Program-made: the position numbers and the translations under genes
The notes under the pieces: model-generated
What the model saw: the letters and a program-made list of their open reading frames with translations, nothing else
Told to the model about the DNA's origin: nothing
Database searches by the model: none
Shown: in pieces, positions 14,731 through 60,091 of the stretch
How positions within the stretch are numbered: the stretch's first letter is position 1
Layout of the letters: every line of letters begins with the position of its first letter
From: Kroppenstedtia eburnea
GTDB lineage: Bacteria; Bacillota; Bacilli; Thermoactinomycetales; DSM-45169
NCBI RefSeq assembly: GCF_013282215.1
Contig: NZ_CP048103.1
Coordinates: 2,232,001 to 2,296,000, forward strand
Length of the DNA: 64,000 nucleotides
Direction: 5' to 3'

Positions 14731-14981
14731 TTAGGGTGTGTCTGGCAAATCCATATCTGGGGCCGGGCCGGTCGGGATTGGGTTTCACATTCCATTCCGT
14801 TGTTCTTACGAGCCAAAATCACTCCATGTGAAACCCAACCCTCCCATAGCGAGACCGGGAACGGGAGTGACCTTGGCGAGACTTGTGCCCTGTGGGTATG
14901 ACGATGTTTTCACCACGCTTCCGGGACGGATCTGGTGGTACCGTCTTCCTTAGACAACTTGAATGATCAGACATGCCCTAA
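14731..14981. repeat. Dispersed intergenic repeat, variant with TTAGGG ends
   Basis: About 251 bp bounded by an inverted pair: TTAGGGTGTGTCTG at the left and the complement of TTAGGGCATGTCTG at the right. The inside shares the core of the other intergenic repeats of this window: GGGTTTCACAT, then ATGTGAAACCC, then GCGAGACCGGGAACGG and GGCGAGACTTGTGCCC. The rest of 14436-15077 holds only a small GGATCGCC/GGGCGATCC hairpin (14708-14728) and no gene. Confidence 0.6.
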
Positions 14982-21861: not shown

Positions 21862-21919
21862 TATATCCGGGGCCGGGCCGGTCGGGTTGGGGTTTCACAT
21901 TCCTTCGGACACACCCTAA
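21862..21919. repeat. Partial copy of the TTAGGG-ended intergenic repeat
   Basis: Shares GGGGCCGGGCCGGTCGGG and GGTTTCACATTCC with the element at 14731-14981, then jumps to GGACACACCCTAA, the complement of a TTAGGGTGTGTCC end. Left end missing. Lies between the ilvA start and the LysR gene stop. Confidence 0.5.
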
Positions 21920-42681: not shown

Positions 42682-42709
42682 GGTGTTTCCTCCTTTTTTC
42701 TCATCAAAA

Positions 42710-42813: not shown

Positions 42814-42824
42814 CGAACTCCTTT

Positions 42825-45032: not shown

Positions 45033-45193
45033 AGTGGCAGCGTTGTGATATTGCGCTTTCTCAGTCGGTCGGGAGAGGGGTTCATATTCCGCTTCCAGTT
45101 GTGCTGAGTAAACCCACGAGACCGGGAACGGAGTAACCTAGGCGAGACTTGTGTCCTGTGGGTATGACGGCTTTTTCACAACGTTTTGGTCTA
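45033..45193. repeat. Degenerate copy of the intergenic TIR repeat
   Basis: Left end like CAGCGTTGTGA, right end TTCACAACG..GGTCTAG; inside are GAGACCGGGAACGGAGT and GCGAGACTTGTGTCCTG. The hairpin core is eroded. It abuts the next copy at CTAG (45191), so the two are tandem. Confidence 0.6.
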
Positions 45194-45367
45194 GAAGTGT
45201 TGTGAATGAGTGCTGGCCAGGTCGGTCGGGGTTGGGTTTCACATGTCGTTTTCGTTGTTCTTACGATCCAAAATCACTCCATGTGAAACCCAACCCTCCC
45301 TGCGTAGCGAGACCAGGAACGGAGTGACCTTGGCGAGACTTGTGCCCTGTGGGCACAACGCTTCTAG
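45191..45367. repeat. Intergenic TIR repeat (MITE-like), intact copy
   Basis: 177 bp with ends CTAGAAGTGTTGTG and the complement of CTAGAAGCGTTGTG. A 17-bp perfect internal stem: 45229-45245 GGGTTGGGTTTCACATG with 45280-45296. The TAG at 45364-45366 inside the right end is the stop codon of the neighbouring minus-strand gene. Confidence 0.78.
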
Positions 45368-46059
45368 GAAGGTCGTTGATCCTCCTCTTCTTCTTTGCGC
45401 CGGGTGGCATCGTTGTGAGTGATTTCCGCCGGGTTGTCCACCGGACGTCCGTCCATCCCCGCCAGGGCGATCGCCTCCACATCCTCCACATAACCTCTCC
45501 GCTCATCGTGGTCGATGTTCACTTCGTTATAATTGCGCCCTTCCCGGAAATAGTCCGGCGGGTTGGAGGTGCCATATTGGGCCACCTCTTGCCAGGCATC
45601 CTCCGCATCGTAGAAATTGGCATCCGTCTGATCGTGAAAATGATCACCGTAGGGTGGGTGGATAATCTTCTCCTCCGCCGGACGCCGGTTGGACAGATCC
45701 CGATCCCGTTTGTGCTCCATGCAATAGGGGGTCTCCGGAACCGCCTCCAGCCGTTCAAAGGGAATCTCCTTTCCGCAGACGACACAGGTTCCGTAATGAC
45801 CGGCTTCCATGCGGAGAAGGGCCAGCTCCACCTCCTCCAGATGCTCTTCGTCCTGTTCATTGAGGGCGACGTCTTTCCCCCGTTCAAAGAGCTCCGTCCC
45901 GAGATCCGCCGGGTGGTTGTCATACCCCGCCAGCTCCCCGACAGAATCATTCATCCCCTCTTCCATCCCGTAGTGGGCATTTTGCTGGAGCTTTTTGGTC
46001 AGGCGGGCTTTCTCCTCCTCCAGCTGTTTTTTCAATTGTGCCAGTTGTTGATCCGTCAC
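45364..46059 (-). CDS. DksA/TraR-type zinc finger protein, YteA/YlyA-like
   Basis: 231 residues. An N-terminal coiled coil (QLAQLKKQLEEEKARLTKKLQQ) and a C4-like zinc finger CVVCGKEIPFERLEAVPETPYC near residues 100-121 mark the YteA family, with an acidic tail (RRKEEEEDQRPS). The position between ileS and lspA matches ylyA of B. subtilis, a DksA-like gene linked to sporulation. It may bind RNA polymerase; function inferred. GTG at 46059 follows GAGAGGATGGGG. Its stop codon lies inside the end of an intergenic repeat, so the C terminus may have been altered by that insertion. Confidence 0.85.
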   Translation of the reverse strand: MTDQQLAQLKKQLEEEKARLTKKLQQNAHYGMEEGMNDSVGELAGYDNHPADLGTELFERGKDVALNEQDEEHLEEVELALLRMEAGHYGTCVVCGKEIPFERLEAVPETPYCMEHKRDRDLSNRRPAEEKIIHPPYGDHFHDQTDANFYDAEDAWQEVAQYGTSNPPDYFREGRNYNEVNIDHDERRGYVEDVEAIALAGMDGRPVDNPAEITHNDATRRKEEEEDQRPS

Positions 46060-46076
46060 CTGATATCCCCATCCTC

Positions 46077-46403
46077 TCAATATTTCCTCCCGTCCAGTTC
46101 CAATTGGGCCTGAACGATGCGCACGATCTGCGCAATATAGTCTCCCACCACTGGCAGATTTAACGCTCCGAGCTTTTGCAACAGATAAACGATGGTCGCA
46201 GTGAAGATGGTAACCCCGATGGCGATCCCCACTCCCCGGGCGATTCCGGTCACGATGTTGAGCAGAATCAACCGTCTGGGGGAATTCAGCAGTTGAACAT
46301 ATTCGGCAATCTCCCCCATCTCCATCCTGCGCCCGATCTCCATCAACCGATGATCCACACTTTGCAGCCATTCCCGGGTCTCTTCGGAATCCCGTCCGCT
46401 CAT
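46077..46403 (-). CDS. DUF5665-like small membrane protein
   Basis: 108 residues. The N-terminal half is amphipathic (REWLQSVDHRLMEIGRRMEMGEIAEYVQLLNSP), then comes one hydrophobic helix with Gly zipper (GIARGVGIAIGVTIFTATIVYLLQKLG, about 55-82), then a short helix (VVGDYIAQIVRIVQAQLE). This matches the common Bacilli DUF5665 layout. Function unknown. Ends 17 nt before the YlyA-like gene, likely cotranscribed. An ATG pair at 46406/46403 follows GGGGGG; I use the second. Confidence 0.75.
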   Translation of the reverse strand: MSGRDSEETREWLQSVDHRLMEIGRRMEMGEIAEYVQLLNSPRRLILLNIVTGIARGVGIAIGVTIFTATIVYLLQKLGALNLPVVGDYIAQIVRIVQAQLELDGRKY

Positions 46404-46602
46404 CATTCGTCCCCCCGCTGTCACTCCTCTTTTCAATGTGCCCCGACCACTGATTTTTCTTTCGAAAAAGGCTCTTCCGCTCCCGACATTTTCTGCTTTA
46501 CAACCGATCCAAGGGGCGTCATCAGATGACACCCCCGGCTCGGTTGTCGGGATTGGGAATGGCTGGTGATAGTGGACGGCCATCAGTTTTCCGCTTGGCG
46601 GT

Positions 46603-46793
46603 TTAGAAGTGTTGTGATTTAGTGCATTCTTGGACGGTCGGGATGGGGTTTCACATTGCGTTCTGTTGTTCTTGCGAGCCAAAGTCACTTCATGTGAAAC
46701 CCAACCCTCCCTACATAGCGAGACCGGGTGCGAAAGCACCCTGGTGAGACTTGTGCCCTATGGGTATGAATGGCTTTTTCACAATGCTTCTAA
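46603..46793. repeat. Intergenic TIR repeat (MITE-like)
   Basis: 191 bp with ends TTAGAAGTGTTGTGA and the complement of TTAGAAGCATTGTGA (13 of 15 match). Core stem GGGTTTCACAT/ATGTGAAACCC. The right end supplies the TAG stop (46790-46792) of the SASP gene. Confidence 0.75.
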
Positions 46794-47023
46794 TCCCAGT
46801 CGATGGGCTGTTCGGAGAGGTTGGCCTCGGCCAGACCCACCATTCGTTTGGTCATCTCTCCGCCGATGGACCCATTGGCCCGGGCAGTGGCCTCCGGGCC
46901 GGGAATCACTCCAAATTCACTGGCGATTCGCTCTTTCCATGCGTTCCACCAAGCTTGGGCATCCTCTGTTTCATGATCCAAAAACCTTGCTCCCGGTCGC
47001 TCTCTTCCCGGTTCAGTTGGCAA
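46790..47023 (-). CDS. Alpha/beta-type small acid-soluble spore protein
   Basis: 77-residue DNA-protecting spore protein. The family signature is clear: [20 protein letters not shown] and [16 protein letters not shown] in residues about 32-65. The E-F pair in ASEFG fits the GPR protease site region. Unusual is the N-terminal half with [12 protein letters not shown] and three Trp. The start is a TTG at 47023, 8 nt after AAAGGAGG; an earlier TTG at 47050 would put that site inside the gene. Stop codon lies in a repeat end. A sigma-G-like promoter is at 47076-47104. Confidence 0.88.
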
Positions 47024-47075
47024 TCGGAATCCCTCCTTTTTCCTCTTCAAGGACAGGATTTGCTCCTGCCCCCCC

Positions 47076-47104
47076 TTTTATGCCAAGATCTGGACGTCAC
47101 ATAA
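47076..47104 (-). promoter_or_regulatory. Possible sigma-G promoter of the SASP gene
   Basis: Minus strand TTATG (47100-47104), 17 bp, CATAAAA (47076-47082), close to the sigma-G pattern GHATR / CATWMTA. One mismatch in each box. The remainder of 47105-47326 holds only the terminator at 47108. Confidence 0.4.
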
Positions 47105-47107
47105 CAA

Positions 47108-47143
47108 AACCAGCCCTGGAATCTTCACTTCCACGGCTGGTTT
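47108..47143. terminator. Terminator between the AHSA1 gene and the SASP gene
   Basis: AACCAGCC and GGCTGGTT arms with extra inner pairing (TGGAA/TTCCA), T-rich on both sides (TTTATTTTT plus, TTTTGTT minus). It can end the minus-strand AHSA1 operon. Confidence 0.65.
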
Positions 47144-47326
47144 ATTTTTGCAATATACAGCATCAAGGATCGACCGATAGGAGCACACCCATTCACGGAA
47201 TGTTTTGAACAGGGTTGCCGATTCGTCCCCACATGGACAGTGACGAAGAGTGTAAGCGTCCGCGTCTTTAAGGGAATGCGTTACGGAAAAATCGGCCAAC
47301 GCGGCCTTTTCTGTTCCCGGCGTATA

Positions 47327-47851
47327 TCATTTGCTTTGAAACTCCGCCAAAAAGTCGGCCAGTTGGTCCCAGGTTTGGGTGATGCCCTGAATCACGCCCA
47401 TATCCAGCACCGACTTGACAGCTTCTTCCGTCGCGTATTGCGTACGGCTGATCAACTTCGTCTTGCCGTCCTGTTCGACGAAGTCCAATGTGATCCGCGC
47501 CTCCGGCATATTCTCATTAATGTTGCCTTCCGCATCGGAGAACGCATCGGTGTACACGATCCGCTCCGGTTCCACGATTTCATTAAAAACCGCCCTGCCC
47601 CACGATTCTTGACCAAAATGTTCCTGGCTTTCGTCATCGCATTTCATGCAATAATGCCATACTCCACCCGGACGAAAATCGATGTTGCAAACCGTAAGCG
47701 GCCAACCTTCTGTACCAAACCAACGCATTAAATGTTCGGCCTTTGCAAAAGCTTCGAACACCAAATCCCGCGGCGCGTCAAACACGCGTTCCAGTACCAG
47801 CTCACGACCTTCCACCTTCGATAGCAATTTGTTCGTTGCACGATTCGCCAT
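47327..47851 (-). CDS. AHSA1/SRPBCC domain protein
   Basis: 174-residue START-like ligand-binding fold of the activator-of-Hsp90 type used by bacteria next to ArsR regulators. Landmarks: LVLERVFDAPRDLVFEAF near residue 17, HLMRWFGTEGWPL, GGVWHYCMKC and the C-terminal GITQTWDQLADFL. Last gene of an ArsR-DoxX-AHSA1 unit. Biochemical role unknown; such proteins may bind hydrophobic ligands. Confidence 0.88.
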   Translation of the reverse strand: MANRATNKLLSKVEGRELVLERVFDAPRDLVFEAFAKAEHLMRWFGTEGWPLTVCNIDFRPGGVWHYCMKCDDESQEHFGQESWGRAVFNEIVEPERIVYTDAFSDAEGNINENMPEARITLDFVEQDGKTKLISRTQYATEEAVKSVLDMGVIQGITQTWDQLADFLAEFQSK

Positions 47852-47881
47852 TTCAAAAATCTCCCTTGATATAGTATTTAG

Positions 47882-48346
47882 TCAAGCAACCCTCCAAGAA
47901 TGATTGAGAGACCGCTTAAACTCCGGATTCATTATTGTGTTGATACTTCTCCATTCCTCAATCCATTCCTTCTTGTCCTTTTTAATTTTTCTGAGGTTTT
48001 GGTAGCCCACATAGGAACCTGCAATCACCAGGAACCCAAGGCTCATTACCGGTTGTGTGACCCGATGGCGATGAAAGAATAGGTGGCACCTGCGAGGTCA
48101 AAGGTAAGACCGGCATATGCCCATTCCTTGGCTGGGAAACCCGGGTACGAGTATCGCAATCACGCCCATCAGCTTCGCCACCCCAAGAAAGGGGAGGAGA
48201 TAGACAGGATAACCAAGCTGTTGAAAAAGGGCAACAGAATCCGCCCAGGAGAGAATGTTGGGTATGGATCCCACACCCATCAGCAGGGCTACAAATCCGG
48301 TGCAAATCCAGTGGATAATCGTGAGTTTACGATCGCTGGTCTTCAC
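47882..48346 (-). pseudogene. DoxX-like membrane protein gene with two compensating frameshifts
   Basis: GTG at 48346 after AAAGGAGG. The protein begins VKTSDRKLTIIHWICTGFVALLMG and continues through GYPVYLLPFLGVAKLMGVIAILVPGFP. At about 48129-48136 the frame changes (PAKEWAYAGLTFDLAGATYSF follows in another frame), and near 48050-48056 it returns to the first frame (VTQPVMSLGFLVIAG) up to a TGA at 47882. The result without shifts would be about 154 residues with four helices. Two indels in 85 bp suggest decay, though poor sequence quality is possible. Confidence 0.72.
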
Positions 48347-48668
48347 CGGTACTCCTCCTTTTTTGCAGTTCCTGCAAATAATCGTCCAAGCGGTCAAATT
48401 TCTCGTCCCAGACGCGACGGAAAGAGTCCAGCCAAACGTCCATCTCTTGGAACGCCTGATGCCGCAACTTGTAAATTCGCCGATTTGCGACCGCATGCAC
48501 TTCGACGATCCCGGCATCACTAAGTACACGAAGATGTTTGGAAGCTTGCGGTTGGCGAAGCCCCAACCGTTTGGTGATTTCCCCCACTGAGAGAGGGCCG
48601 CTGCGCAAGAGCTCGACAATCTGTAATCGGTTAGGTTCGGCAAGCGCGCTCCACATGGTTGTTTTCAT
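48327..48668 (-). CDS. ArsR family transcriptional repressor
   Basis: 113 residues with a winged helix-turn-helix (MWSALAEPNRLQIVELL, LSVGEITKRLGLRQPQASKHLRVL, residues about 5-55). No CxC-type metal site is seen (ELRSGPL in place of ELCVCDL), so it is not a classical metal sensor; it belongs to the group that partners AHSA1/DoxX genes. A strong dyad overlapping its promoter (48756-48793) points to autorepression. Overlaps the DoxX start by 20 nt. Confidence 0.9.
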   Translation of the reverse strand: MKTTMWSALAEPNRLQIVELLRSGPLSVGEITKRLGLRQPQASKHLRVLSDAGIVEVHAVANRRIYKLRHQAFQEMDVWLDSFRRVWDEKFDRLDDYLQELQKRRSTGEDQRS

Positions 48669-48755
48669 GTCTTCCGCTCCCTCCCGACCCGGTAAACACG
48701 GCTCAATTGGCTTGACTCATCGTCCACCCCCCCAAATGGTTATTATTCACTTTCC

Positions 48756-48793
48756 TTGACAGGAATATACCACGATGGGAATATTCATGTCAA
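48756..48793 (-). promoter_or_regulatory. Promoter with overlapping dyad operator for the ArsR operon
   Basis: Minus strand -35 TTGACA (48788-48793), 18 bp, -10 TATATT (48764-48769). The whole stretch is an inverted repeat: TTGACATGAATATTCC against TTGACAGGAATATACC from the other strand, 14 of 16 matching. Probable ArsR binding site. Confidence 0.68.
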
Positions 48794-49197
48794 GAAATTT
48801 TCGGAAAATTTTTCATGTGTGCCTGGCTTGCATACAAAAAAACCGATCCGGAACGATCGGATGGGCAAATCCTGTATGGAATATTAGCGCTTGGAGTATG
48901 GAATGGACGTTTATATCCCGGAGTTGGTTTGGCGTAAGTGAAGTGCAGGGGTATGGCCGCAATGGCTGTACTGCCGGGCGACACCGCCCGAATGACGGCC
49001 TTGCTTTGGTAGCCCGGTATCGTCGAAAATGAGCAAGCCCGACCCACGCATATTCGCGGGGACTTTCCGGGTTTGCTGATTGAGATAAGTCTCAATATTG
49101 GGCCGCCGCTTCCCGATATCCATGACAGCATAAATTCTTCGATCTTTCTTTTATCCGTCAATGGGATCACCCAGACATCACTTAACTCCCCTGCCAA
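48790..49197 (-). pseudogene. Remnant of an IS701-like transposase
   Basis: Pieces of a DDE transposase in different frames: DKRKIEEFML, then KRRPNIETYLNQQTRKVPANM, GLLIFDDTGLPKQGRHSGGVARQYS (the DDTG-LPK-HS-GVARQYS block with the first catalytic Asp is typical of IS701), then IPLHFTYAKPTPGYKRPFHT. Frameshifts near 49120 and 48980 and loss of the rest of the gene show decay. It sits between the ArsR operator and ileS; its low end coincides with the ArsR promoter. Confidence 0.68.
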
Positions 49198-49262
49198 TGT
49201 CTGTTACTGCCTTTGCCGCCCGGACGTTCATACAATAAAACACGCCCCATGCCGGGCACACC

Positions 49263-49292
49263 AAAAAAACGCCGATCCCACAGGATCGGCGG
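49263..49292 (-). terminator. Intrinsic terminator of ileS
   Basis: Minus strand GCCGATCC-TGTG-GGATCGGC followed by G and T7. Confidence 0.9.
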
Positions 49293-49307
49293 TTCATTTT
49301 ATGATGC

Positions 49308-52085
49308 TTATTCCGTTTCCGGGTAATGCTTCTCCACAATCTCCCCACAGCGGTGGCAGAGGTCGGGGTGGTGTTCATTTTGGCCGACAGTGGGGGTGAT
49401 CATCCAGCAGCGTTGGCACTTCTCCCCCTGTGCCGGATTCACCTTCACCTGCAGGCTGGTGCCGTCCACGGTGTTGCCCTCGGGTCGCTCCCCGGGTTGG
49501 AACAGCCGGACCTGGGAGACGATGAACAACTCTTCCAGATCAACCCCGCTGTCTAACAAGCGGAAGTTTTCCTCGGAGGGGTACAGCTCCAGCTGAGCCC
49601 CGAGGGAGTTGCCGATCACCTTTTCATTTCTCGCCTCTTCCAAAGCCTTCAGCGCCACATCCCGCAACTCCACCAGCGCATCCCACTTGCTTTCCAGGCT
49701 TGGGTCCAGGATGTCCGTTTCCACCTGTGGGAAATCGGTCAACAGGACGCTCTCCTCCCGGACTCCGGGGATAAACTTCCACACTTCTTCCGTGGTGTGG
49801 GGGAGGATCGGGTGGACCATCCGGACCAACCCCAGCAGGATTTCGTACATCACCGTCTGGGAGGAACGCCGCTTTTCGTCCCCTTGCGGGAGGATGTAGA
49901 GGCGATCTTTCAACACATCCAGATAGAACTGGCTGAGGAAGACGGTGCAGAAATGGTGGATGTGGGTGTAGACGGAATGGAACTCATAGTTCTCAAAGCC
50001 TTTGACCACCTGCTCCACCAGCCGTTGCAGCTTCACCAGGGCGTAACGATCCAACTCATCCAACCGGCTCGGCTCCACCCGGTCGGTTTCCGGCTGGAAA
50101 TCGGACAGGTTGCCGAGGAGGAAGCGGAAGGTGTTTCTGATCTTGCGGTACACCTCGGCGATCTGCTTCAGGATCTTCTCGGAGACCCGGACGTCCGCCT
50201 GATAATCGACAGAAGCCACCCACAGACGGAGAATATCGGCCCCGTAGGTCTTCATCACCTGAAGAGGATCAATCGTGTTGCCCAGGGATTTGGACATCTT
50301 GCGCCCTTCCCCGTCCAATGTGAATCCGTGGGAGAGCACCTGCCGGTAGGGAGCGGTCCCTTTGGTGGCCACGGCGGTGGACAGGGAAGAGTTGAACCAA
50401 CCCCGGTATTGATCGGAACCCTCCAGATAGAGATCGGCCGGCCACCCGGCCTCCTCCCGTTGCTCCAGCACGGCGGCATGGCTGCTGCCGGAATCAAACC
50501 AGACATCCATCGTGTCTGTCTCTTTGCGGAAGGTGTCGTGTCCACATTCAGAACAGACCGCCCCTGCCGGGAGCAGCTCCTCCGCCTCTTTGGCATACCA
50601 GGCGTTGGAACCCTCTTCGGCAAAGATGTTGGCGATGTGGTCGATGGACTCATCGGTGACATAGGGATGGTTGCAGGAGCGGCAGTAGAAGATGGGAAGC
50701 GGCACACCCCACACCCGTTGCCGGGAGATGCACCAGTCCCCCCGATCCTTCACCATATTGGCCAGTCGCACTTCACCCCAGGCAGGTGTCCATTTCACCT
50801 TCTGAATCTCTTCCAGCAACTTGTCACGGAAACCGTCGATGGAGACAAACCACTGTTCCGTCGCCCGGAAAATAACCGGCTTCTTCGTACGCCAGTCATG
50901 GGGATACTGGTGGGTGATAAAGGAGAGCTTCAACAGATCCCCTTGCTTCTCCAGCTTTTCCGTGACCACCTTGTTGGCGTCGTCGTAAAACATTCCTTCA
51001 AACCCGGGGGCCTCCGCGGTGAAACGCCCTTTTTCATCCACGGGGCAAAGAACGCCCAGATTATACTTCTTGCCGAGTTCAAAGTCTTCCGCCCCGTGAC
51101 CCGGTGCCGTGTGCACACAACCGGTCCCGGCGTCCAGCGTCACATGATCGCCACAGATGAGCGGGCTTTCCCGATCATAGAAGGGATGCCGGCAAACCAC
51201 CCCCTCCAACTCCGCCCCCTTGAAAGTGGCGACGGTTTCAAATGATGTAATCCCCGCCACCTTCATCACATCTTCCACCAATTCCTCTGCCAACAGGAGA
51301 TGACGCTCCCCTGTTTTGACCAGTGCATAGGTGAAGTCGGCATTCACAGCGATTCCGAGGTTGGCGGGAATTGTCCAGGGGGTGGTGGTCCAGATCACCA
51401 CATAAGCGTTTTCCACCGGGAAGAGGCCGCGACTCTCTTTGACCGGGAAGGTGACATAGATGGAGGGGGAACGTTTTTCTTTATATTCCACCTCTGCATC
51501 GGCCAATGCCGATTCCGAAGAAGGGGACCAATAAATGGAGCGATATCCCTGATAAACATAGCCCTTTTTCACCATTTCACCGAAAATGCGAATCTGCTTC
51601 GCCTCGTACCGGGGTGCCAACGTCACATATGGATGCTCCCAGTCCCCGAGAATTCCCAACCTTTTAAACTGGTCTCTCTGCCGGTTCACAAACGAGAGCG
51701 CGTACTCTCTGCACTCTTCCCTCAACTTTACGGGATCCAACTCCCTGCGGTTCAGTTTTTTCTTTGTGATGACCGCATGCTCAATCGGCATCCCATGTGT
51801 ATCGTATCCGGGAATATAGGGGGTATCAAAGCCTTGCAAGGATTTAAACCGGATGATCATATCCTTCAGCACCCGGTTCATGGCATGCCCGATATGAATG
51901 TTTCCGTTGGAATAGATGGGCCCGTCATGCAAAACAAATTTCGGCTTTCCCTTGCGCCTTTCCAGAACCTGATGATAGATGTTTTTTTCGTCCCACTCGG
52001 CTTGCATCTCCGGCTCCCGGTTGGGCAGGTTGCCCCGCATCGGAAACCGGGTCTGCGGAAGGTTCAACGTCTGTTTATAATCCAT
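49308..52085 (-). CDS. ileS: Isoleucyl-tRNA synthetase
   Basis: Charges tRNA-Ile. 925 residues, class Ia: the HIGH motif in [12 protein letters not shown] near residue 60, an editing (CP1) domain with [11 protein letters not shown] near 235, KMSKS as [10 protein letters not shown] near 600, an anticodon-binding domain and a C-terminal zinc finger (CQRCW...CHRCG, about 885-910). The PPYANG block before HIGH reads PIYSNG. ATG at 52085 follows GGAAGGAG. Expression is controlled by a T-box with an ATC specifier. Bacillus-like position between divIVA and ylyA. Confidence 0.96.
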
Positions 52086-52110
52086 TTCCCTCACTCCTTC
52101 CAAAATAAAA

Positions 52111-52400
52111 AAACTCCTCAATCCCGGTAGGGACGAGAAGTTACCCGCGGTACCACCCTAATAAGCCCTTCGATCGGAACGGAAGGACCCGCTTGATGAT
52201 CCGTAACGGGGATCGGGCGGCCTCCCCTACTTCTGTTTCAGGGGGCAGCTCCCGGGTGATCTTCGACAGAGGTATCGTGTTAGGCTTTCACCCTCCCTAA
52301 CTCGCTGAACCGAAACCCTGCTGCCTACTCTCCCGTTCTTCGCCTGTACAGCGAAACCCCGTGTCACTTACACAGGGTTTGCCATGGTTTTCAGGGCCGG
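52111..52400 (-). ncRNA. T-box leader (Ile) of ileS
   Basis: Minus strand: Stem I with AGTA bulge and a specifier-loop ATC (52258-52260, in GAAGATCACC), the T-box sequence AGGGTGGTACCGCGGG (52144-52159), and the terminator AACTTCTCGTCCC/GGGATTGAGGAGTT with T run (52111-52142). Uncharged tRNA-Ile should stabilise the antiterminator. Confidence 0.93.
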
Positions 52401-52465
52401 GTGATCTCGCCCCAACCCGTCATCAACGCGCCACAGTTTGGCGAACTCACCCTCAAATTCGGTAT

Positions 52466-52494
52466 ATAATACCAAATTCAGCTGGAAATGTCAA
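52466..52494 (-). promoter_or_regulatory. Sigma-A promoter of ileS
   Basis: Minus strand -35 TTGACA (52489-52494), 17 bp, -10 TATTAT (52466-52471), upstream of the T-box. Confidence 0.8.
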
Positions 52495-52503
52495 GACAGA
52501 AAA

Positions 52504-53358
52504 TCAAAACATCGCTTTCCGCTTCATTTTTCGGGATGTTCGACGCAAATCGCGATGGGGCTCCTCTTCCTCTCCCATATATGCTCTCTGGTCGTAGGGA
52601 GGGTTCGTATCCTCCAAGGGAGAGTGGGAGACAAAGGTATCCTGACCGTAATCCTGGGCTTGTCCATAGTCATCCGCAGGTTGTTGCAACATCATGTTTT
52701 CGTTCCGGTCTTCCGCATATTGGTCCAGTTGCTTGCCCGCCTCTTCCAGACCTTCTTCCAGTTCCTCAAGAGACTCCCAGTCGGTGTTGTCGAGAATATC
52801 CAGGTGAGACTGCACCAACGTGCGGAAGCGGGCCCGGTACACCGTCGCCTTTTGTTTCAGATCCATCAATTCGGTATGGACATCCCGGGCTTTTTGCAAG
52901 GCTTCGTTGATGATCCGATCCGCGTTTTTCTCCGCTTCCTGAACGATCAGTTCCGCTTCTTTCTTGGCGTTCAGGCGCACCTCTTCAGCCACTTCCTGAG
53001 CCACACGGATCGACTTGTGGATGCTTTGCTCCATGGAAGAGAGCGAAGCGGCGGAAGGCTGTTGTTGTATCGGTGCCGGCGGTTCCGCATGTTGCGGATA
53101 GCGGGGTTGCGGCGGTTGAGGTTGCGGTGGTGCCGGGGGAGACGTGTGTTGAGCGGGAGCGGACAACTGCTCGTCCATCACTTGTTCCAGCTCTTGTTGC
53201 AATTCCTCCACCTGTTGTTCCAACTGCTGTTTCTCACGGATGAGAAACTCGAAATCTTTGATAATCTGATCGAGGAAGTCGTTGACCTCGTCTACGTCAT
53301 AGCCGCGAAAGGAGCGTTTAAACTCTTTATTGTGTATATCCAAAGGACTGAGCGGCAT
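52504..53358 (-). CDS. divIVA: Cell-division initiation protein DivIVA
   Basis: Membrane-curvature-sensing coiled-coil protein that marks division sites and poles. 284 residues: N-terminal lipid-binding domain (LSPLDIHNKEFKRSFRGYDVDEVNDFLDQIIKDF, residues 3-37), a coiled coil to about 68, a Pro/Gln-rich linker (about 68-110, PPAPPQPQPPQP) and a second coiled coil about 115-215. The acidic/polar tail is long. The linker makes it longer than the B. subtilis protein (about 164). Downstream of the ylm genes. Confidence 0.95.
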   Translation of the reverse strand: MPLSPLDIHNKEFKRSFRGYDVDEVNDFLDQIIKDFEFLIREKQQLEQQVEELQQELEQVMDEQLSAPAQHTSPPAPPQPQPPQPRYPQHAEPPAPIQQQPSAASLSSMEQSIHKSIRVAQEVAEEVRLNAKKEAELIVQEAEKNADRIINEALQKARDVHTELMDLKQKATVYRARFRTLVQSHLDILDNTDWESLEELEEGLEEAGKQLDQYAEDRNENMMLQQPADDYGQAQDYGQDTFVSHSPLEDTNPPYDQRAYMGEEEEPHRDLRRTSRKMKRKAMF

Positions 53359-53483
53359 GCTGACACCTCCTCAGGAATTGGCCTCGCCTTTTTCTATTCT
53401 ACAATGTTAGCAGAATTCCTTCCAATTGGCTACACCAACTTGTCCCAGTTCATCAGTTTTCCAGACAAGTGGTCTCCCTTTTG

Positions 53484-54263
53484 TCAAAGGAACCGGATGA
53501 GCTGAATTCTGTGGCGACCTTTCTTCGTCTCACCCAAAATCTCCCCGACACGAACCCGTCCCTGTCCGCGCAGGGAGATCATGTCTCCCTCGCGGACCGG
53601 TTCCGCAGGGTTCTCCGTCGTTTTCCAATTGATATGGCATCTTCCGTTCTTGATCAACGGAGTCGCTTTCGCTCTCGACAGACGGAAGGCCTCCGCAACC
53701 AGAGCATCCACCCGGAGCGAGGCGACGGATACCGTCACAACCTCCGTCTCCTGTTGCGGCGGTCGGATCTCTTCCCGTTTGATTTCCGTCATCCGAACGG
53801 GAATCCTGCCGACCCGATTCAGTTGCATCCGGATATAGTCCAAAATTTCCCCGGCAATGATCACCTGACAATGGGTCTCCCGGGGCAGAAGATCCCCGAT
53901 CACTTCCCGCTTCACTCCCAAGCCCAGCAGTGAACCCAGCACATCCGGGTGCTTCAAGGGGCTGGAACGGTCCACCGATTCCAGCTCCAGAAATGACAAA
54001 CCGTTGTCCCCTTCCTCTTGCCAAGGCGGAAAAATGCGCGCCCGCTTCCGCTCGGCATCGAAAAAGCCCCCGTCGAAGGTGACACCGAGTTCGGGGGCCC
54101 TTTTCACCAGCATATCGGTGATGGTTTGTTCCCTCGGATTGAGAAAAGGGGTCAACACAGGGCGGGAGCGTCTTTCCACCTGCTCCGTCCAATCCAGCAC
54201 CCGCTCCACAAAAGGACGCTCGTCCGAGCGAAAATGACGGAACAAATCTTCCTTGCGCACCAT
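53484..54263 (-). CDS. ylmH: YlmH, S4-domain RNA-binding protein
   Basis: 259 residues with an N-terminal YlmH domain (FLNPREQTITDML near residue 40, GGFFDAERKRARIFP) and a C-terminal S4 domain (LRVDALVAEAFRLSRAKATPLIKNGRCHINWK, about 182-215). YlmH-type proteins bind 50S subunits in ribosome quality control, which links it with RqcH in this window (family knowledge). Overlaps ylmG by one nt. Confidence 0.92.
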   Translation of the reverse strand: MVRKEDLFRHFRSDERPFVERVLDWTEQVERRSRPVLTPFLNPREQTITDMLVKRAPELGVTFDGGFFDAERKRARIFPPWQEEGDNGLSFLELESVDRSSPLKHPDVLGSLLGLGVKREVIGDLLPRETHCQVIIAGEILDYIRMQLNRVGRIPVRMTEIKREEIRPPQQETEVVTVSVASLRVDALVAEAFRLSRAKATPLIKNGRCHINWKTTENPAEPVREGDMISLRGQGRVRVGEILGETKKGRHRIQLIRFL

Positions 54264-54529
54264 TAAAAAGCACCCAGGATCAGCTGAAGGATAAAAAAGA
54301 CACCTTGTTCCACAAATCTCAACGCGATCAAAGCGATGATCGGAGAGATATCGATCATGCCCAGGGGCGGGATAAAGCTGCGGAAAATGGACAGATAGGG
54401 TTCCACCAGCCTGGCGAGAAAGAGAGCGATGGGCGATTCCCTCCCATTGGGGAACCAGGACAGAAGGATATAACCGAAGATCATAAATTGATATATCGTG
54501 AACAATGTGTTAACGATTTGGAAGATCAT
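54263..54529 (-). CDS. ylmG: YggT family membrane protein (YlmG)
   Basis: 88 residues with two hydrophobic helices at about 3-25 and 62-85, linked by the conserved ILLSWFPNGRESPIALFLARLVEPYLSIFRSFIPPLGMIDISPIIALI segment typical of the family (WFP, EPYL, FRSFIPP). Cell-division cluster gene of unclear role. Starts 4 nt after sepF. Confidence 0.93.
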   Translation of the reverse strand: MIFQIVNTLFTIYQFMIFGYILLSWFPNGRESPIALFLARLVEPYLSIFRSFIPPLGMIDISPIIALIALRFVEQGVFFILQLILGAF

Positions 54530-54533
54530 GAGG

Positions 54534-54956
54534 TCACCTCAACAAGTCATTGGCATCATCGGGAATCAGTTCGCTGATGGATCCCTGGATATCCACATTG
54601 GGCGGGCTCACAATGATGGTTTCCGGGCTCAGTTTGCTGATGCTTCCGTTTAAAGCGTAAACTGTTCCGCTCAAAAAATCAATCACCCGGAAGGCCTCAT
54701 CCTTGGGAAGCCGTTGCAGGCTGACCACCGTGGTGCGGTTGTTTTTCAGATAATCGGCGATATTCTGCACCTCATCAAAAGAGCGTGGTTCCGCCAGCAT
54801 CACCCGCACTTGTTTTTGTGCAGTATGCAAGGAGACCACATTTCCCCTGCCCCGGACGCCCGACGGTTGCTCTTCGTCGGACTCTGTGACAAATCGGGCT
54901 TGTCCCTCCTCTTCGTTGATTCCAAAGAACATCATCACACGCTCCATGAAATTCAA
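54534..54956 (-). CDS. sepF: Cell-division protein SepF
   Basis: FtsZ-bundling membrane anchor of the division ring. 140 residues: N-terminal amphipathic helix (MNFMERVMMFFG), a variable linker to about 45, and the SepF core (VRVMLAEPRSFDEVQNIADYLKNNRTTVVSLQRL...AFRVIDFLSGTVYALNGSISKL, about 50-125). The start is the TTG at 54956, 8 nt after GAGGAGG; this puts the amphipathic helix at the very N terminus as expected. Confidence 0.94.
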   Translation of the reverse strand: MNFMERVMMFFGINEEEGQARFVTESDEEQPSGVRGRGNVVSLHTAQKQVRVMLAEPRSFDEVQNIADYLKNNRTTVVSLQRLPKDEAFRVIDFLSGTVYALNGSISKLSPETIIVSPPNVDIQGSISELIPDDANDLLR

Positions 54957-54969
54957 CGGAACCGCCTCC

Positions 54970-55668
54970 TCACCGCCGCCCGGGAGGTCCACCCACCAAA
55001 ACGGAACCCAGGCGGACAAAGGTTGCACCTTCCTCGACGGCCACCGTATAATCCCGCGACATCCCCATGGACAGGTGGGGGAGGTTCAGGCGGGAATCCC
55101 CGAGCTTCCTGATCTCTTGCTGAAGGCCCCTCAACTGTCGAAAAACGGGACGCACTTCTTCCGGATCTTCCGTAAACGGAGCCATCGTCATCAATCCCGC
55201 CAACTGAAGCCAAGGAAGCTCTGCCGCTTCACGGGCAAAATCGATCACTTCTTCCGGCTTCAGCCCTCGCTTCGACTCTTCCCCCGCCACATTCACCTGA
55301 ATGAAACAGCGCGTCGGCTGCCCCAAGGCTTCCGAACGGTTGTTCAATTCCCGGGCGAGAGAATAGCGATCCAGGGAGTGAACATATGTAAAGCGCCCCA
55401 CCACGGCTTTCACTTTGTTGCGCTGGAGATGGCCGATAAAATGCCAGGCGCCCCGCTCCCCCAACTCTTCCCACTTGGGGACAGCTTCTTGGGCACGGCT
55501 TTCCCCGATGTCGGTCAGTCCGACATCCAACACCCGGCGGGTGGTCTCCACATCGACATACTTGGTGACGGCGATCACATTCACCTCTGCAGGATTTCGT
55601 CCGGCACGTCCGCATGCTTTCTGGATGTTTTCCCTCACCTGATCCAACCGCTCTTTGATCTCATCCAT
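54970..55668 (-). CDS. ylmE: YggS family PLP homeostasis protein (YlmE)
   Basis: 232-residue alanine-racemase-like PLP carrier. The PLP Lys is in NVIAVTKYVDVE near residue 37; GESRAQEAVPKWEEL, WHFIGHLQRNKVK and a C-terminal HLSMGMSRDYTVAVEEGATFVRLGS are family blocks. ATG at 55668 is 9 nt after GAAAGG; an ATG three codons earlier directly abuts that site. In the ylmC-ylmH run. Confidence 0.93.
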   Translation of the reverse strand: MDEIKERLDQVRENIQKACGRAGRNPAEVNVIAVTKYVDVETTRRVLDVGLTDIGESRAQEAVPKWEELGERGAWHFIGHLQRNKVKAVVGRFTYVHSLDRYSLARELNNRSEALGQPTRCFIQVNVAGEESKRGLKPEEVIDFAREAAELPWLQLAGLMTMAPFTEDPEEVRPVFRQLRGLQQEIRKLGDSRLNLPHLSMGMSRDYTVAVEEGATFVRLGSVLVGGPPGRR

Positions 55669-55673
55669 GCTCG

Positions 55674-56498
55674 TCATCCTTTCCCCATTCCAATAAAAGA
55701 AACCATTCGCCCGGTTCGGCCCCTGTCCCGGCGATGGGAATGGAAGAGTTCCGGATGGCAGCTGGTGCACCAGCCCGTAACCAGGACATGGTGCTCTTTC
55801 AAGCCTTCCTTCAGCAACAGACGGCGGTTCGCCTCCCTGAGATCCAGCTTCCATTTACCCTCTCCCGCCGGATTCAAGATTTCCGGACCGGGATCAGGCA
55901 ACAGCCGGGCAACAGGTGTCGCCACCTGTTCGTCCACCTCATAGCAACAACCGCCGATCGACGGTGCGATGGCCGCCCGGATCTCCTCCCTCACCGCGCC
56001 GCGGCGAACCAGTTCACGGATCATCCGCGGTCCGATTCCGCCCACGGTGCCCCGCCATCCGGCGTGGGCCACCCCGACGATCCCCGCGTCGGGACTGTAA
56101 AAGAACAGGGGGACGCAATCCGCGTAAAAAGAGGTCAGAAGAATGCCCCTCTCCCGGGTGAACAAGCCGTCGGTTCCGGAGATGGCGGTTTCCATGCTTT
56201 TGCCGCCCCTGCCGCATTGGTCAGCGGTCACTTCATGGATGTTCACCCCGTGCACCTGTTCCCCGCAAGTCCATGCAGAGAAGGGGACACCCAATTGTGC
56301 CAACAGCCGTTTCCGGTTTTGGATCACACGTTCTGCAGGGGCGCCGGTGTGCAATGCATAATTGGTACGGTCTGGGTCTTCTATGGATTCTCCATCTCTT
56401 GCGCTCATTCCTGCCAAAAGCTCCGGAAAATCCCTTTTCCATGGAACGAGAGCAAAAGTTGGAACCCCCATACCCCTTTGCAGCTGAAACGGTTCCAT
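55674..56498 (-). CDS. ylmD: Peptidoglycan editing factor family protein (YlmD/PgeF)
   Basis: Multicopper-oxidase-like laccase-domain protein, 274 residues. The zinc and active-site residues are in CGEQVHGVNIHEV near residue 78, FYADCVPLFFY near 125, GVAHAGWRGTVGG near 140 and IGGCCYEV near 180. Homologues act on purine nucleosides or on UDP-MurNAc precursors; I cannot decide which applies. ATG at 56498 follows GGGGGAGGG. Confidence 0.92.
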   Translation of the reverse strand: MEPFQLQRGMGVPTFALVPWKRDFPELLAGMSARDGESIEDPDRTNYALHTGAPAERVIQNRKRLLAQLGVPFSAWTCGEQVHGVNIHEVTADQCGRGGKSMETAISGTDGLFTRERGILLTSFYADCVPLFFYSPDAGIVGVAHAGWRGTVGGIGPRMIRELVRRGAVREEIRAAIAPSIGGCCYEVDEQVATPVARLLPDPGPEILNPAGEGKWKLDLREANRRLLLKEGLKEHHVLVTGWCTSCHPELFHSHRRDRGRTGRMVSFIGMGKG

Positions 56499-56559
56499 CG
56501 GGCTTCCCTCCCCCACCATATTACCACAGCCCCGGAAGGAGACAAAGCGGTTGCCCGAG

Positions 56560-56865
56560 TCATCCCTTTTCGGAATCCAGGTTGGTGGACAGAAGGGGAC
56601 GCGGCTCGGGCACTTCTTCATATTCCCGCCGGGGTTCCAAACGGACCAGGATCACGTCTGCTCCGATCCGTACAATCTGACTCCAGGGAATCACCCATTC
56701 CTTCCCGCCGGTGAACAGTCCGAACAGACGGGATTCCCCGGGAATGATAAGGGACTTCACCTTTCCCAACCTGAGATCGATCTCCAGATCGTAGATCTGT
56801 CCCAGTTTCCGCCCGTCGCTGACATTGACCACATCTTTGGCCTGCAGTTCGGATATCTTGATCAT
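56560..56865 (-). CDS. ylmC: PRC-barrel protein YlmC/YmxH
   Basis: 101 residues, a PRC-barrel fold: MIKISELQAKDVVNVSDGRKLGQIYDLEID, LGKVKSLIIPG, FGLFTGGKEWVIPWSQIVRIGADVILV. A similar sporulation-linked gene stands between sigG and ylmD in B. subtilis. The tail beyond residue 80 is acidic. ATG at 56865 follows GGGTGGGGG. Function unclear. Confidence 0.88.
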   Translation of the reverse strand: MIKISELQAKDVVNVSDGRKLGQIYDLEIDLRLGKVKSLIIPGESRLFGLFTGGKEWVIPWSQIVRIGADVILVRLEPRREYEEVPEPRPLLSTNLDSEKG

Positions 56866-57000
56866 GGCCCCCACCCTGTCATTTCAGTCGTTTACTTTCC
56901 ATTATATGAGACAGGACCGGGATATACCCTCGGCCGGTTCAAAAGAAAACCGCACCCCTGTGCGGTTAAGACGTGTGGTAATTAAAGTTTTCGAGGAATG

Positions 57001-57132
57001 GGAGTACGTTGTGACAGCAACAAGGGAGGGCTGGGTTTCACATGGAGTGATTTTGGATCGTCAGAACAACGAAAACGACATGTGAAACCCAATCCCGACC
57101 GGCCATGAACGCATAAATCACAACGCTTCTAG
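57001..57132. repeat. Short copy of the intergenic TIR repeat, inverted
   Basis: 132 bp in the opposite orientation to the other copies, with a CTAGAAGCGTTGTGA end at 57132 and a weaker GTACGTTGTGA end. The stem GGGTTTCACATG...CATGTGAAACCC is kept, but the GAGACCGGGAACGG segment is absent. The CTAG supplies the sigG stop. Confidence 0.7.
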
Positions 57133-57908
57133 AGGATATATTTATTCATCTGCTGAATCGCCGCTTTCTCCAGCCGGGAGACCTGGGCCTGGGAAATGCC
57201 GATCTCTTCCGCCACCTCCATCTGTGTCTTTCCTTCAAAGAAACGCATGGATAAAATCATTTTCTCCCGATCGTTCAATCGGCCCATCGCTTCCCGGAGG
57301 GCAATCTCTTCAACCCAATGCAGGTCCTTGTTCTCGTCATCTGCAAGTTGGTCCATCACATAGATGGGATCGCCTCCATCCTGGTAGATGGGTTCGAAAA
57401 GAGAGACCGGGTCCTGAATCGCATCCAGGGCGAACACCACTTCTTCCTTGGATACATTCAGCTCTTCGGAGATTTCTTGGATCGTCGGTTCCCTGGAATG
57501 GCGGTAAGTCAACGAATCCCTCACCTGAAGCGCTTTGTAGGCGATATCCCTCAGAGAGCGGGAGACGCGGATCGGGTTGTTGTCCCGAAGATACCGGCGG
57601 ATCTCCCCGATGATCATCGGGACCGCATAAGTGGAGAACTTGACATTTTGGCTCAGGTCGAAGTTGTCGATCGCTTTCATCAATCCGATGCAACCCACCT
57701 GAAACAGGTCGTCCACATTTTCCCCACGGTTATTGAAGCGCTGAATCACACTCAGGACCAGCCGGAGGTTGCCGTTGACCAGTTTCTCCCGGGCCGAGCG
57801 GTCTCCCTCCTCCTGCAGGGAACGAAAAAGGGCGCGCATCTCTTCGTTCTTGAGCACAGGTAACTTTGAAGTATCAACTCCGCATATTTCCACTTTGTTT
57901 CGCGCCAT
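57129..57908 (-). CDS. sigG: RNA polymerase sigma-G factor
   Basis: Late forespore sigma factor. 259 residues. The N terminus MARNKVEICGVDTSKLPVLKN is the SigG signature; region 2 has DLFQVGCIGLMKAIDNFD near residue 75 and YAVPMIIGEIRRYLRD; region 4 has TQMEVAEEIGISQAQVSRLEKAA near 230. The stop TAG (57129-57131) is the outer part of an intergenic repeat end, and the last residues (NKYIL) may reflect that insertion. ATG at 57908 follows GGAGGGG. Downstream of sigE as in Bacillus. Confidence 0.96.
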   Translation of the reverse strand: MARNKVEICGVDTSKLPVLKNEEMRALFRSLQEEGDRSAREKLVNGNLRLVLSVIQRFNNRGENVDDLFQVGCIGLMKAIDNFDLSQNVKFSTYAVPMIIGEIRRYLRDNNPIRVSRSLRDIAYKALQVRDSLTYRHSREPTIQEISEELNVSKEEVVFALDAIQDPVSLFEPIYQDGGDPIYVMDQLADDENKDLHWVEEIALREAMGRLNDREKMILSMRFFEGKTQMEVAEEIGISQAQVSRLEKAAIQQMNKYIL

Positions 57909-58003
57909 GGATTCCCCTCCTACGGACACAATTACTGTTAAGTATCTCCTGAGGAGGAAAAATTATAATGGCGGGTGCAAATCGGATCTGCCGATCCGAA
58001 ATC

Positions 58004-58030
58004 AAAAAAAAGGAGGGGAATCCCCTCCTT
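58004..58030 (-). terminator. Intrinsic terminator of spoIIGA-sigE
   Basis: Minus strand AAGGAGGGGATTCCCCTCCTT with T run, between sigE and sigG. Confidence 0.9.
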
Positions 58031-58049
58031 CAGCCGCATCGCGCCGCGG

Positions 58050-58772
58050 CTACACCATCTTGTTAAATTCTTTGCGAAGCCGTTTGATAATCCGCTTCTC
58101 CAGACGGGAGATGTAAGACTGGGAGATCCCCAACAGATCGGCCACGTCTTTTTGGGTCTTCTCCTCCCCACCGTTGAGGCCGAAGCGGAGCTCCATGATC
58201 TTTCGCTCCCGCTCGGACAGCCGGGACAGAGCTGTGCGCAAAATCTTCCGATCCACCTGCTCTTCGATGTTGCGGTAAATGGTATCATTGTCTGTGCCCA
58301 TCACATCGGAGAGCAACAGCTCATTGCCGTCCCAGTCCATATTGAGAGGTTCGTCAAAGGAAACCTCCGACCGGATTTTGTTGTTACGTCGCAGAAACAT
58401 CAGGATCTCATTTTCGATGCAGCGGGAGGCGTATGTGGCCAGCTTGATCTTCTTTGAAGGGTCAAAGGTGTTGACAGCTTTGATCAGGCCGATGGTGCCG
58501 ATGGATACCAGATCTTCAATGTTGATTCCCGTATTCTCAAACTTGCGGGCGATGTAGACCACCAACCGGAGATTGCGCTCAATCAACATGGCTCGAACCG
58601 CCGCATCCCCGCTGGGCAATCGGATCAACAGATGTTCTTCCTCTTCCCGGGTCAGGGGTGGAGGCAGGGCCTCACTTCCCCCGATATAATATATTTCTTC
58701 TCCTTTCAACCCGATCTGCATAAGGATACGGTACCACAATAATTGGAACGCCAACTTCCACTTCAGGACCAT
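58050..58772 (-). CDS. sigE: RNA polymerase sigma-E factor precursor
   Basis: Early mother-cell sigma factor made as pro-sigma-E. 240 residues. The N-terminal pro-sequence (about 1-27, amphipathic, [16 protein letters not shown]) leads into [13 protein letters not shown], the conserved junction cut by SpoIIGA. Region 2 has [18 protein letters not shown] near residue 88, region 4 [23 protein letters not shown] near 208. Placed 55 nt after spoIIGA, its protease. Confidence 0.97.
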
Positions 58773-58827
58773 ACGACGACCTCCTCCTTCAATCTTTCAA
58801 GACAAGCCCGGGGATTCGACGGGGTTT

Positions 58828-59736
58828 TTATCCTGCAACCGGCATGCAGGCGGGATGCAGGATCGCCTGGTACGTCCCATCCGTGGACAATCGCTTGCTG
58901 TCCAGTCCGATCAGCACCCTCCCCGCCTCGTGCCATCTGCCCTCCTGGAACACTTCCACTCTGTCCGGTTTCAGGGCGAGCAACATGCCACCGTCACTGG
59001 CGGCTCCGCGGAAGGGAACAAACCGGATCCGGGTCATCCACTCTTCCGATAAGTCGGTTCCCAATCTTGCCCAATTCTTCTCCTGTGTCATGGAGACCAA
59101 CGGGGAGGGCAAAAAGGGGGCCAATGGTTCCAATTCCACCATCATGACCGGAATCCGGCTGATCGGATCCCGCAGTTGGTTGCCTGTATCGATCAGGCCG
59201 ACGCATTCCACCTTTTTCCCATTGATCCAGATCGCCACAGGGGCCAGGAACTGATTCACACTGTGACGTTCCTGAATCGTTCCAAAGGATACCCGGGCGT
59301 ACAGCCAAACCAAGGGAAAAGCCAACAAGACGAACACCCAGGATACAGGAGAACCCCACCCGTAGGATTGGGTCAGCAACATCCCATCGGATGCTTGGAC
59401 CCCTCCGGAAAAGAAATAATGGAGTGCAAACATCCCCCCGCCGGTAACAAAGGAGATCAGATAAAAAACTCCCAAGTTTCGCAAAAAGGCGAGCGGTCCG
59501 CGAAAGCCCATGGCCACCCACACCATCAACACGGAAAACAGCATTTTTCCGATAAACGTGTAAGAAAGGAGTAAAGGTTGAAGCAGATGGATCACGGCAT
59601 AGCTGGCACCGAGAAGCGCTGCTGCCAGAATCCGCCGAATGGAAGTCTGCTGGCGACGAATCGCAGATGTCAGCCACAAGAGAAGAAAATCGATGCACAG
59701 GTTGAGGGCGAAAACCATGTCGGCATATACAACCAT
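58828..59736 (-). CDS. spoIIGA: Pro-sigma-E processing aspartic protease SpoIIGA
   Basis: Septum-localised protease that activates sigma-E. 302 residues: five membrane helices in residues 1-155, then a soluble aspartic protease domain with the catalytic motif GLIDTGNQLRDPIS near residue 183 and VLIGLDSKRLSTDGTYQAILHP near the end. The start codon is close to the family N terminus (VVYADMVFALNLCIDFLLLW). A -10-like TATACT (59769-59774) upstream, together with nearby TGTCA-containing boxes, could be a Spo0A-dependent promoter; this is not proven. Confidence 0.94.
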   Translation of the reverse strand: MVVYADMVFALNLCIDFLLLWLTSAIRRQQTSIRRILAAALLGASYAVIHLLQPLLLSYTFIGKMLFSVLMVWVAMGFRGPLAFLRNLGVFYLISFVTGGGMFALHYFFSGGVQASDGMLLTQSYGWGSPVSWVFVLLAFPLVWLYARVSFGTIQERHSVNQFLAPVAIWINGKKVECVGLIDTGNQLRDPISRIPVMMVELEPLAPFLPSPLVSMTQEKNWARLGTDLSEEWMTRIRFVPFRGAASDGGMLLALKPDRVEVFQEGRWHEAGRVLIGLDSKRLSTDGTYQAILHPACMPVAG

Positions 59737-59844
59737 TTTTGGTTCCTTCCCCTGTTCAAGGTGTCATCAGTATATCCCAATCCATTTTCAATGTCTGTCT
59801 AAACTTGCAGACGCCGGGTGACTTTTTTTGTCAGTTCTTGACAC

Positions 59845-59881
59845 AAAAAAGGGTGGCCTCAGCAGATCCTGAGTACCACCC
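59845..59881 (-). terminator. Intrinsic terminator of ftsA-ftsZ
   Basis: Minus strand GGGTGGTACTCAGG pairs with CTGAGGCCACCC, followed by T6. The repeat at 59902-60091 is inserted between it and the ftsZ stop. Confidence 0.85.
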
Positions 59882-59901
59882 CTGTTCATCATCAACGCCC
59901 T

Positions 59902-60091
59902 CTAGAAGCGTTGTGATTTAGTGCATTCTTGGACGGTCGGGATTGGGTTTCACATTTTGTTCCGTTGTTCTTACGAGCCAAAGTCACTCCATGTGAAACC
60001 CACCCCTCCCTGCATAGCGAGACCGGGAACGGAGTGACCTAGGCGAGACTTGTGCCCTATCGTATGAATGGCTTTTTCACAATGCTTCCAG
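59902..60091. repeat. Intergenic TIR repeat (MITE-like)
   Basis: 190 bp with ends CTAGAAGCGTTGTGA and the complement of CTGGAAGCATTGTGA (13 of 15 match); core GGGTTTCACAT...ATGTGAAACCC then GCGAGACCGGGAACGG and GGCGAGACTTGTGCCC. Lies 20 nt past the ftsZ stop. Confidence 0.78.

Follow-up and report, generated by a model that had tools for sequence, protein, structure and literature searches.

Putative BOX-like modular repeats of Kroppenstedtia eburnea: MITE-type ends around a hairpin module shared by four families of Bacilli

Short intergenic repeats in a 64,000-nt stretch of the Kroppenstedtia eburnea chromosome (NZ_CP048103.1, positions 2,232,001 to 2,296,000; hereafter the window) are, judging from sequence comparison, probably BOX-like modular miniature inverted-repeat transposable elements (MITEs). 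Their ends would have been mobilised by a transposase of the IS1182 family; the ends enclose a hairpin, module A, and zero to seven tandem copies of a second module, B, which appear to be exchanged between carriers and kept for their fold. An initial annotation of the window had read five of these repeats as MITEs. As far as mobility is concerned that reading stands, whereas simple MITEs they are not: the block GCGAGACC... is a separate module found in repeats with different ends, and since these ends are quite different, the repeats are better described as BOX-like modular elements. Module B is a discrete structured cassette. Its carriers have unrelated ends, and it is present in four families of Bacilli.

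The five copies belong to a family, alpha, bounded by terminal inverted repeats (TIRs) of the form AAGCRTTGTGA...TCACAAYGCTT. An alpha element consists of the left end, the module A hairpin of about 75 nt (GGTCGGGATTGGGTTTCACATG ... CATGTGAAACCCAACCCTCCC), zero or more B modules and the right end CCTATGGGTATGAATGGCTTTTTCACAATGCTT. Module B reads RCATAGCGAGACC, a tip and GGCGAGACTTGTGC, followed by a short linker; the core has 44 nt and the whole unit about 52 nt. A 211-nt query gave at least 72 blast pieces in its own genome (one contig, 3,564,999 bases) among the best 40 of 411 candidates that were scored, far above chance. The fetched stretches of the host genome hold 150 A cores, and 101 of these lie within alpha elements in which both ends are recognised with at most two mismatches per end; this is the family that a genome-wide search for copies, as the initial annotation had proposed, brings out in the host chromosome. 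Chance hairpins are excluded by this copy number together with the target duplications described below. The elements are 129-491 bp long, short and TIR-bounded as MITEs are, and the one copy whose G+C content was determined is A+T-richer than its surroundings (0.495 versus 0.561 for the window), which is likewise typical of MITEs. A whole alpha copy of 191 nt folds as RNA with -66.1 kcal/mol (z = -3.7 versus shuffles).

The lengths of 90 of the 101 alpha elements fall into steps of about 52 nt: 129-132 (14 elements), 182-187 (33), 230-238 (21), 284-289 (18), 339-342 (3) and 491 bp (1). A covariance model of B (R1) has at least 150 matches at 108 places of the host genome, the worst with an E value of 3.4e-11; since all 150 scored candidates matched, the true number is probably higher. 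With a permissive pattern, by which at least two arrays look spurious and the class 'A+both' reflects loose matching of beta ends (see below), 136 B arrays with 243 units were counted, namely 70 single, 34 double, 26 triple and 5 quadruple arrays and one of seven. The number of B copies per element thus ranges from 0 to 7.

That the alpha repeats were once mobile elements of the MITE kind is supported by their TIRs, by 4-bp target duplications, by an empty site and by an IS1182-family insertion sequence (IS) with the same ends. The flanking 4 bp are identical on both sides in 59 of the 101 elements. Because CTAG is common on both sides, CTAG/CTAG pairs were removed from the duplication test, and 29 of the remaining 71 elements still have identical flanks (permutation mean 6.4, maximum 15 in 5000). 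Other duplicated targets include CTAA, TTAG, TTAA, CTAT, CTTG and CTGG. The end motif of the initial annotation accordingly has to be divided: its TIR is real, its CTAG mostly the target duplication.

One site could be compared with its empty counterpart. Between ftsZ and spoIIGA, A and B are absent in all eight relatives in which the interval is visible (nine were examined, one of them not visible); the few weak end-like matches in these intervals are what is expected of an 11-mer with two mismatches. Downstream of sigG, the sister species K. guangzhouensis carries its hairpin copy elsewhere, beyond the terminator, and the window copy adjoins the sigG stop codon. From the absence at the one site and the displacement at the other it follows that insertions differ between species. 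The CTAG beside the window copy (57129-57132) contains the stop codon TAG of sigG (a sigma factor by Pfam); by eye, the stop in K. guangzhouensis is TGA.

Where the alpha ends may come from is indicated by transposase genes of relatives. DDE_Tnp_1 transposases gave 43 matches in ten genomes of the family, and 30 loci were scanned for alpha ends. In K. guangzhouensis (L308) a broken IS1182-type gene lies between CTAG-AAGCGTTGTGAAATACGG and ATGAATGACTTTTTCACAATT-CTAG, the right end resembling that of alpha with bases lost; this decayed element is the IS with the same ends whose existence the initial annotation had suggested looking for. In a second genome (G007, L319), a left alpha end precedes a frameshifted IS1182-type gene, and the scan of that locus for alpha ends found no right one. 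All four transposase pieces match NCBIfam IS1182 best (NF033551; E 1.5e-44 for the first) and score below the full-length cut-off of the model, as expected of fragments. Relatives of the L308-type transposase are present in five of the ten family genomes, and none was found in the whole host genome (protein search, E <= 1e-10), consistent with the earlier statement that the window holds no transposase with these ends. The host searches covered the DDE_Tnp_1 and Y1 families. They gave two DDE_Tnp_1 loci, and both were rejected as mobilisers, having ends other than those of alpha: one is closest to IS701, with ends ATGAGCAAAA and CTAG-like flanks, the other to IS1182, with inverted repeats GAGCCTTTTGCA. 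It is quite likely, from these comparisons, that alpha stems, as a MITE, from an element of the IS1182 family. An IS1182-type transposase that is not found in the host genome today would have moved it in trans. Some members of the IS1182 family were described, according to PMC5678879, as targeting palindromic sequences, which is consistent with the CTAG target. The transposase pieces between alpha ends match IS1182 best; the alpha elements, unlike IS1182 members, are gene-less.

Module B, and partly module A, also occurs in two further kinds of carriers, beta and gamma, the latter with the ends TGCCCCTTCAGG ... GCTGAGGGGCAC. The permissive pattern detects eight beta/beta and four gamma/gamma B arrays in the host genome. 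There are hybrids as well: beta-left/alpha-right at 2872414 and 3491982, gamma-left/beta-right at 3547027 and alpha-left/gamma-right at 459755 (L105) and, by eye, at L154. Two of the four arrays scored as 'A+beta/alpha' (462297 and 1064159) look like plain alpha. Inspected by eye, alphas lacking B read CCCTCCCT followed directly by RTGAATGGC, and filled ones read CCCTCCCT, then RCATAG...GGGT, then ATGAATGGC. A distant genome (L326) has two adjacent carrier copies, one of which contains exactly one 52-nt B (ACATAG...GGGT) more than the other; 56 bases to the left and 44 bases to the right of the junction are identical in both. Recombination among the repeats would change the number of B copies and pass B from one carrier to another, and we consider it fairly probable that B is gained and lost in this manner rather than by an enzyme of its own. 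A further conserved stretch, GCGGAGAATC...GGGCGTTT, is found close to B at six loci (L097, L048, L050, L052, L058 and L319). This stretch resembles the 3' end of IS605-type elements and is possibly another shared module.

The base of B is conserved and its tip changes with compensation; the fold is conserved. As RNA, the base pairs GCAUAG with CUuGUGC, followed by a symmetric CGAG/CGAG, CC/GG and a tip such as GG-GA-AC-GGA-GU-GA-CC. We take CGAG/CGAG and the GA...GA of the tip to be tandem sheared G.A pairs. Watson-Crick pairs take the place of CGAG/CGAG both in some host copies (CGUG/CACG) and in one distant genus (CGCG/CGCG), and CC/GG gives way to CU/AG in 17 of 80 distinct units; one base pair is U.G in 60 of the 80 (92 of 102 matches were used in this comparison). 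In alignment A1 (52 of 64 distinct B cores), two-sided changes are seen in six pairs, compared with 2.9 for shuffles (six is attained by 7 of 500), and the covariation score exceeds that of all 500 shuffles. In the arms alone (alignment A4, 37 of 42 distinct arm pairs, the other five being out of register), nine cells have two-sided changes, against 3.0 in shuffles (0 of 500). These shuffle controls ignore relatedness. A GA-type or full Watson-Crick hairpin fits 48 of 72 distinct tips (of 73) but only 1.5% of shuffled tips. Two variants of B fold better than shuffles as RNA, with z of -2.7 and -3.3. The GGA loop is not conserved, which bears on the idea of a CsrA site. B would owe its retention to its fold, most probably in the form of an RNA hairpin arising from transcription of the carrier; on this structural modelling, the chance that B acts as a folded RNA when transcribed is about even.

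Beyond the host, R1 matches B in nine of ten genomes of the family, with 139 matches in one (G008), at least 150 in another (G009) and none in a third (G005). It also matches in 14 of 42 genomes of the order, of which two have just one weak match each, and in 18 of 398 genomes drawn from the class Bacilli, the matches spanning four families; among 398 genomes drawn from the phylum, only the host has matches. The searches of order, class and phylum used stricter filters, and those of class and phylum scored at most 15 candidates per genome, so that some B modules may have been missed. The carriers of the distant copies, 16 of 20 loci being displayed, differ again in their ends, as judged by eye, and B is often repeated there in tandem every 52 to 56 nt. 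Seven of the nine carriers displayed for the distant genus g48 (L324, L325, L327, L330, L332, L333 and L334) immediately follow, by eye, a terminator-like hairpin with a T run and share its orientation. At two loci of genus g40 (L336 by Rfam, L337 by eye), 16S rRNA is preceded at short distance by a B unit.

An origin from a phage or plasmid found no backing: one exact B pattern had no match in the viral contigs of IMG/VR, and an alpha element and a distant B carrier had none among INPHARED phages or PLSDB plasmids. Nor does a known RNA family account for the repeats, since neither the window elements nor B in seven loci matched Rfam above gathering score; at L335 a sub-threshold mir-551 match (E 0.62) overlaps B, and at L336 a Bacillaceae-1 RNA match lies beside it. 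Nothing on the B motif or on these repeats was found among the listed open-licence articles of PMC, apart from one of three B strings in a paper on wheat genes, taken as coincidence.

The orientation of the repeats goes with the replication half in which they lie. At 79 of 108 places, B is found on the minus strand if the place belongs to the first half of the chromosome and on the plus strand if it belongs to the second (Fisher p 2e-6), and the bias persists at 24 of 33 places where the neighbouring genes disagree in direction (p 0.014; gene directions were taken from crude gene calls based on open reading frames). The same bias is seen in A cores (115 of 150) and in alpha elements lacking B (11 of 15), which indicates that it belongs to the carrier rather than to B.

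Such a bias, together with a short structured unit in tandem arrays, recalls repetitive extragenic palindromes and their mosaic clusters (REP/BIME), moved as single strands by RAYT or another Y1 (HUH) transposase. This is nevertheless very improbable here: Y1 transposases (PF01797), present in six of the ten family genomes, have no match in the host, K. guangzhouensis or G003, all of which hold B, the bias is shared by B-less alpha elements, and the alpha carriers have ordinary inverted repeats and target duplications. Even less credit can be given to fixed ancestral regulatory hairpins that never moved. The window copies are intergenic and fold strongly, as this would have it, but the target duplications, the IS with the same ends and the absence from the orthologous site in all eight relatives in which it is visible speak against it.

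A different possibility is that B itself is mobile, a dedicated enzyme inserting and excising the 52-bp unit (RCATAG...GGGT) precisely, so that it hops independently of its carriers. The same unit boundaries in unrelated carriers (by eye), the clean 52-bp presence or absence within the identical flanks of L326, the spread over four families and the tandem arrays would all fit. We regard it as unlikely, however, since there is no target duplication at the one clean junction (L326), where recombination between carriers accounts for the pair equally well, nor has a candidate for the enzyme come up: the recombinase search covered Y1, which is without a match in both of the Kroppenstedtia genomes rich in B. 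Also against it, one exact B pattern had no match in the viral contigs, and whole elements had none among the phages and plasmids. It is a little less doubtful that B is an RNA element of benefit to the host (a protein-binding site, an attenuator or a protector of mRNA ends) for which the carriers are retained. The conserved base with its freely changing but compensated tip, the frequent U.G pair and the position behind terminator-like hairpins in g48 would agree with such a role; the range from 0 to at least 150 matches per genome within one family is more like that of a parasite than of a host regulator, and orientation goes with the replication half also at places between genes of differing direction.

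Several observations weigh against modular MITEs with IS1182-mobilised ends and a B module kept for its fold. The lengths of 11 of the 101 alpha elements lie outside the steps of one B unit. The link to IS1182 consists of two decayed ISs, only one of which has both ends, and its right end is missing bases. As to the fold, the arms alone contain two pairs with two-sided changes, a number that 207 of 500 shuffles reach, and the count of pair types does not exceed that of shuffles on either alignment. Covariation in the base helix is modest, the base of B being so conserved; its first two base pairs are often unpaired, and 24 of 72 tips fit neither defined fold. The commonest B, taken alone, folds no better than shuffles, either as RNA (z 0.5) or as single-stranded DNA (z 0.25).

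By their arrangement, the alpha, beta and gamma repeats are BOX-like in kind; membership of the streptococcal family is not claimed. The BOX elements of Streptococcus pneumoniae and S. suis are, according to Croucher et al. (2011; PMC3049150), likewise modular short intergenic repeats with TIRs and target duplications, in which a variable number of central boxB modules, predicted to form RNA stem-loops, lies between end modules. The corresponding features here are the length steps, with arrays of 1-4 and 7 units, and the presence of one central module within the alpha, beta and gamma ends. In S. suis, one and the same boxB module is found within two families that differ in their ends (PMC3049150); by analogy, this is the nearest precedent that we found. 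The present repeats differ from BOX in their host group, in a B module that spans four families of Bacilli with at least three end types in one genome, and in the source IS family proposed for one end type. With bacterial MITEs as the sources at hand portray them (PMC10969869, PMC3049150) they share short length, TIRs, extensive base pairing, target duplications and presumed mobilisation in trans; unlike in those, an internal cassette is common to families with different ends. For a simple MITE, a single IS would be the expected source. IStrons also carry an RNA structure inside a DNA transposon (PMC4227781), but B has only 52 nt, and nothing in the present results, which did not include a test for it, points to splicing or ribozyme activity.

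The related elements of the window are listed in Table 1. All five copies of the initial annotation are present, and their exact ends have now been determined. The internal stem GGGTTTCACATG/CATGTGAAACCC and the block GCGAGACCGGGAACGG described there exist, although not every copy has both. The beta element, a sixth related element, and a lone arm of hairpin A had not been listed. Elsewhere in the window there is a CRISPR (clustered regularly interspaced short palindromic repeats) array at 17122-20262, in which 25 stretches match Rfam CRISPR-DR2; a PyrR binding site (42703-42816) and a T-box leader (52126-52349), both on the minus strand, exceed the Rfam gathering score.

Table 1. Repeat elements and modules of the window (positions counted from its first nucleotide)
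Feature	Positions	Strand	Description
Beta element	14733..14979	+	Ends AGGGTGTGTCTG / CAGACATGCCCT; A hairpin 14770-14844 and one B core 14844-14888, same as in alpha
Lone left arm of hairpin A (remnant)	21880..21900	+	
Alpha, degenerate copy	45038..45186	+	Ends CAGCGTTGTGA / TCACAACGTTT; hairpin A divergent; one partial B 45117-45154
Alpha	45195..45363	+	CTAG on both sides; A hairpin 45224-45299; one B core 45302-45345; right linker shortened
Alpha	46607..46789	+	Flanks TTAG / CTAA; A hairpin 46636-46710; B core 46713-46756 with tip GGGTGC-GAAA-GCACCC
Alpha without B (hairpin only)	57004..57128	-	One end adjoins CTAG 57129-57132; other end decayed
Alpha between ftsZ and spoIIGA	59906..60087	+	Flanks CTAG / CCAG; A hairpin 59935-60009
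Module B core (44 nt) in the ftsZ-spoIIGA copy	60012..60055	+	By covariance model R1 and fold; linker after core shortened

Why BOX-type repeats have central modules that are common to different end modules is, to our knowledge, still unclear. The repeats described here extend a BOX-like arrangement beyond the streptococci. For one of the end types a source IS family is proposed, the central module can be traced through four families, its fold is defined by about 80 distinct natural variants, and there is an exact pair with and without it. What the central module does becomes a testable question. As B has no match in Rfam, it would add a new RNA family, if it is transcribed. Tentatively, B may be a 52-nt passenger that DNA transposons carry as a unit in its own right, structured as RNA or as single-stranded DNA. 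With its two tandem-GA motifs, it would be acquired and shed precisely by mobile elements that have unrelated ends and share it across at least four families of Bacilli; unrelated MITE families would then converge on one common hairpin that a conserved protein or machinery recognises, to the advantage of the carrier.

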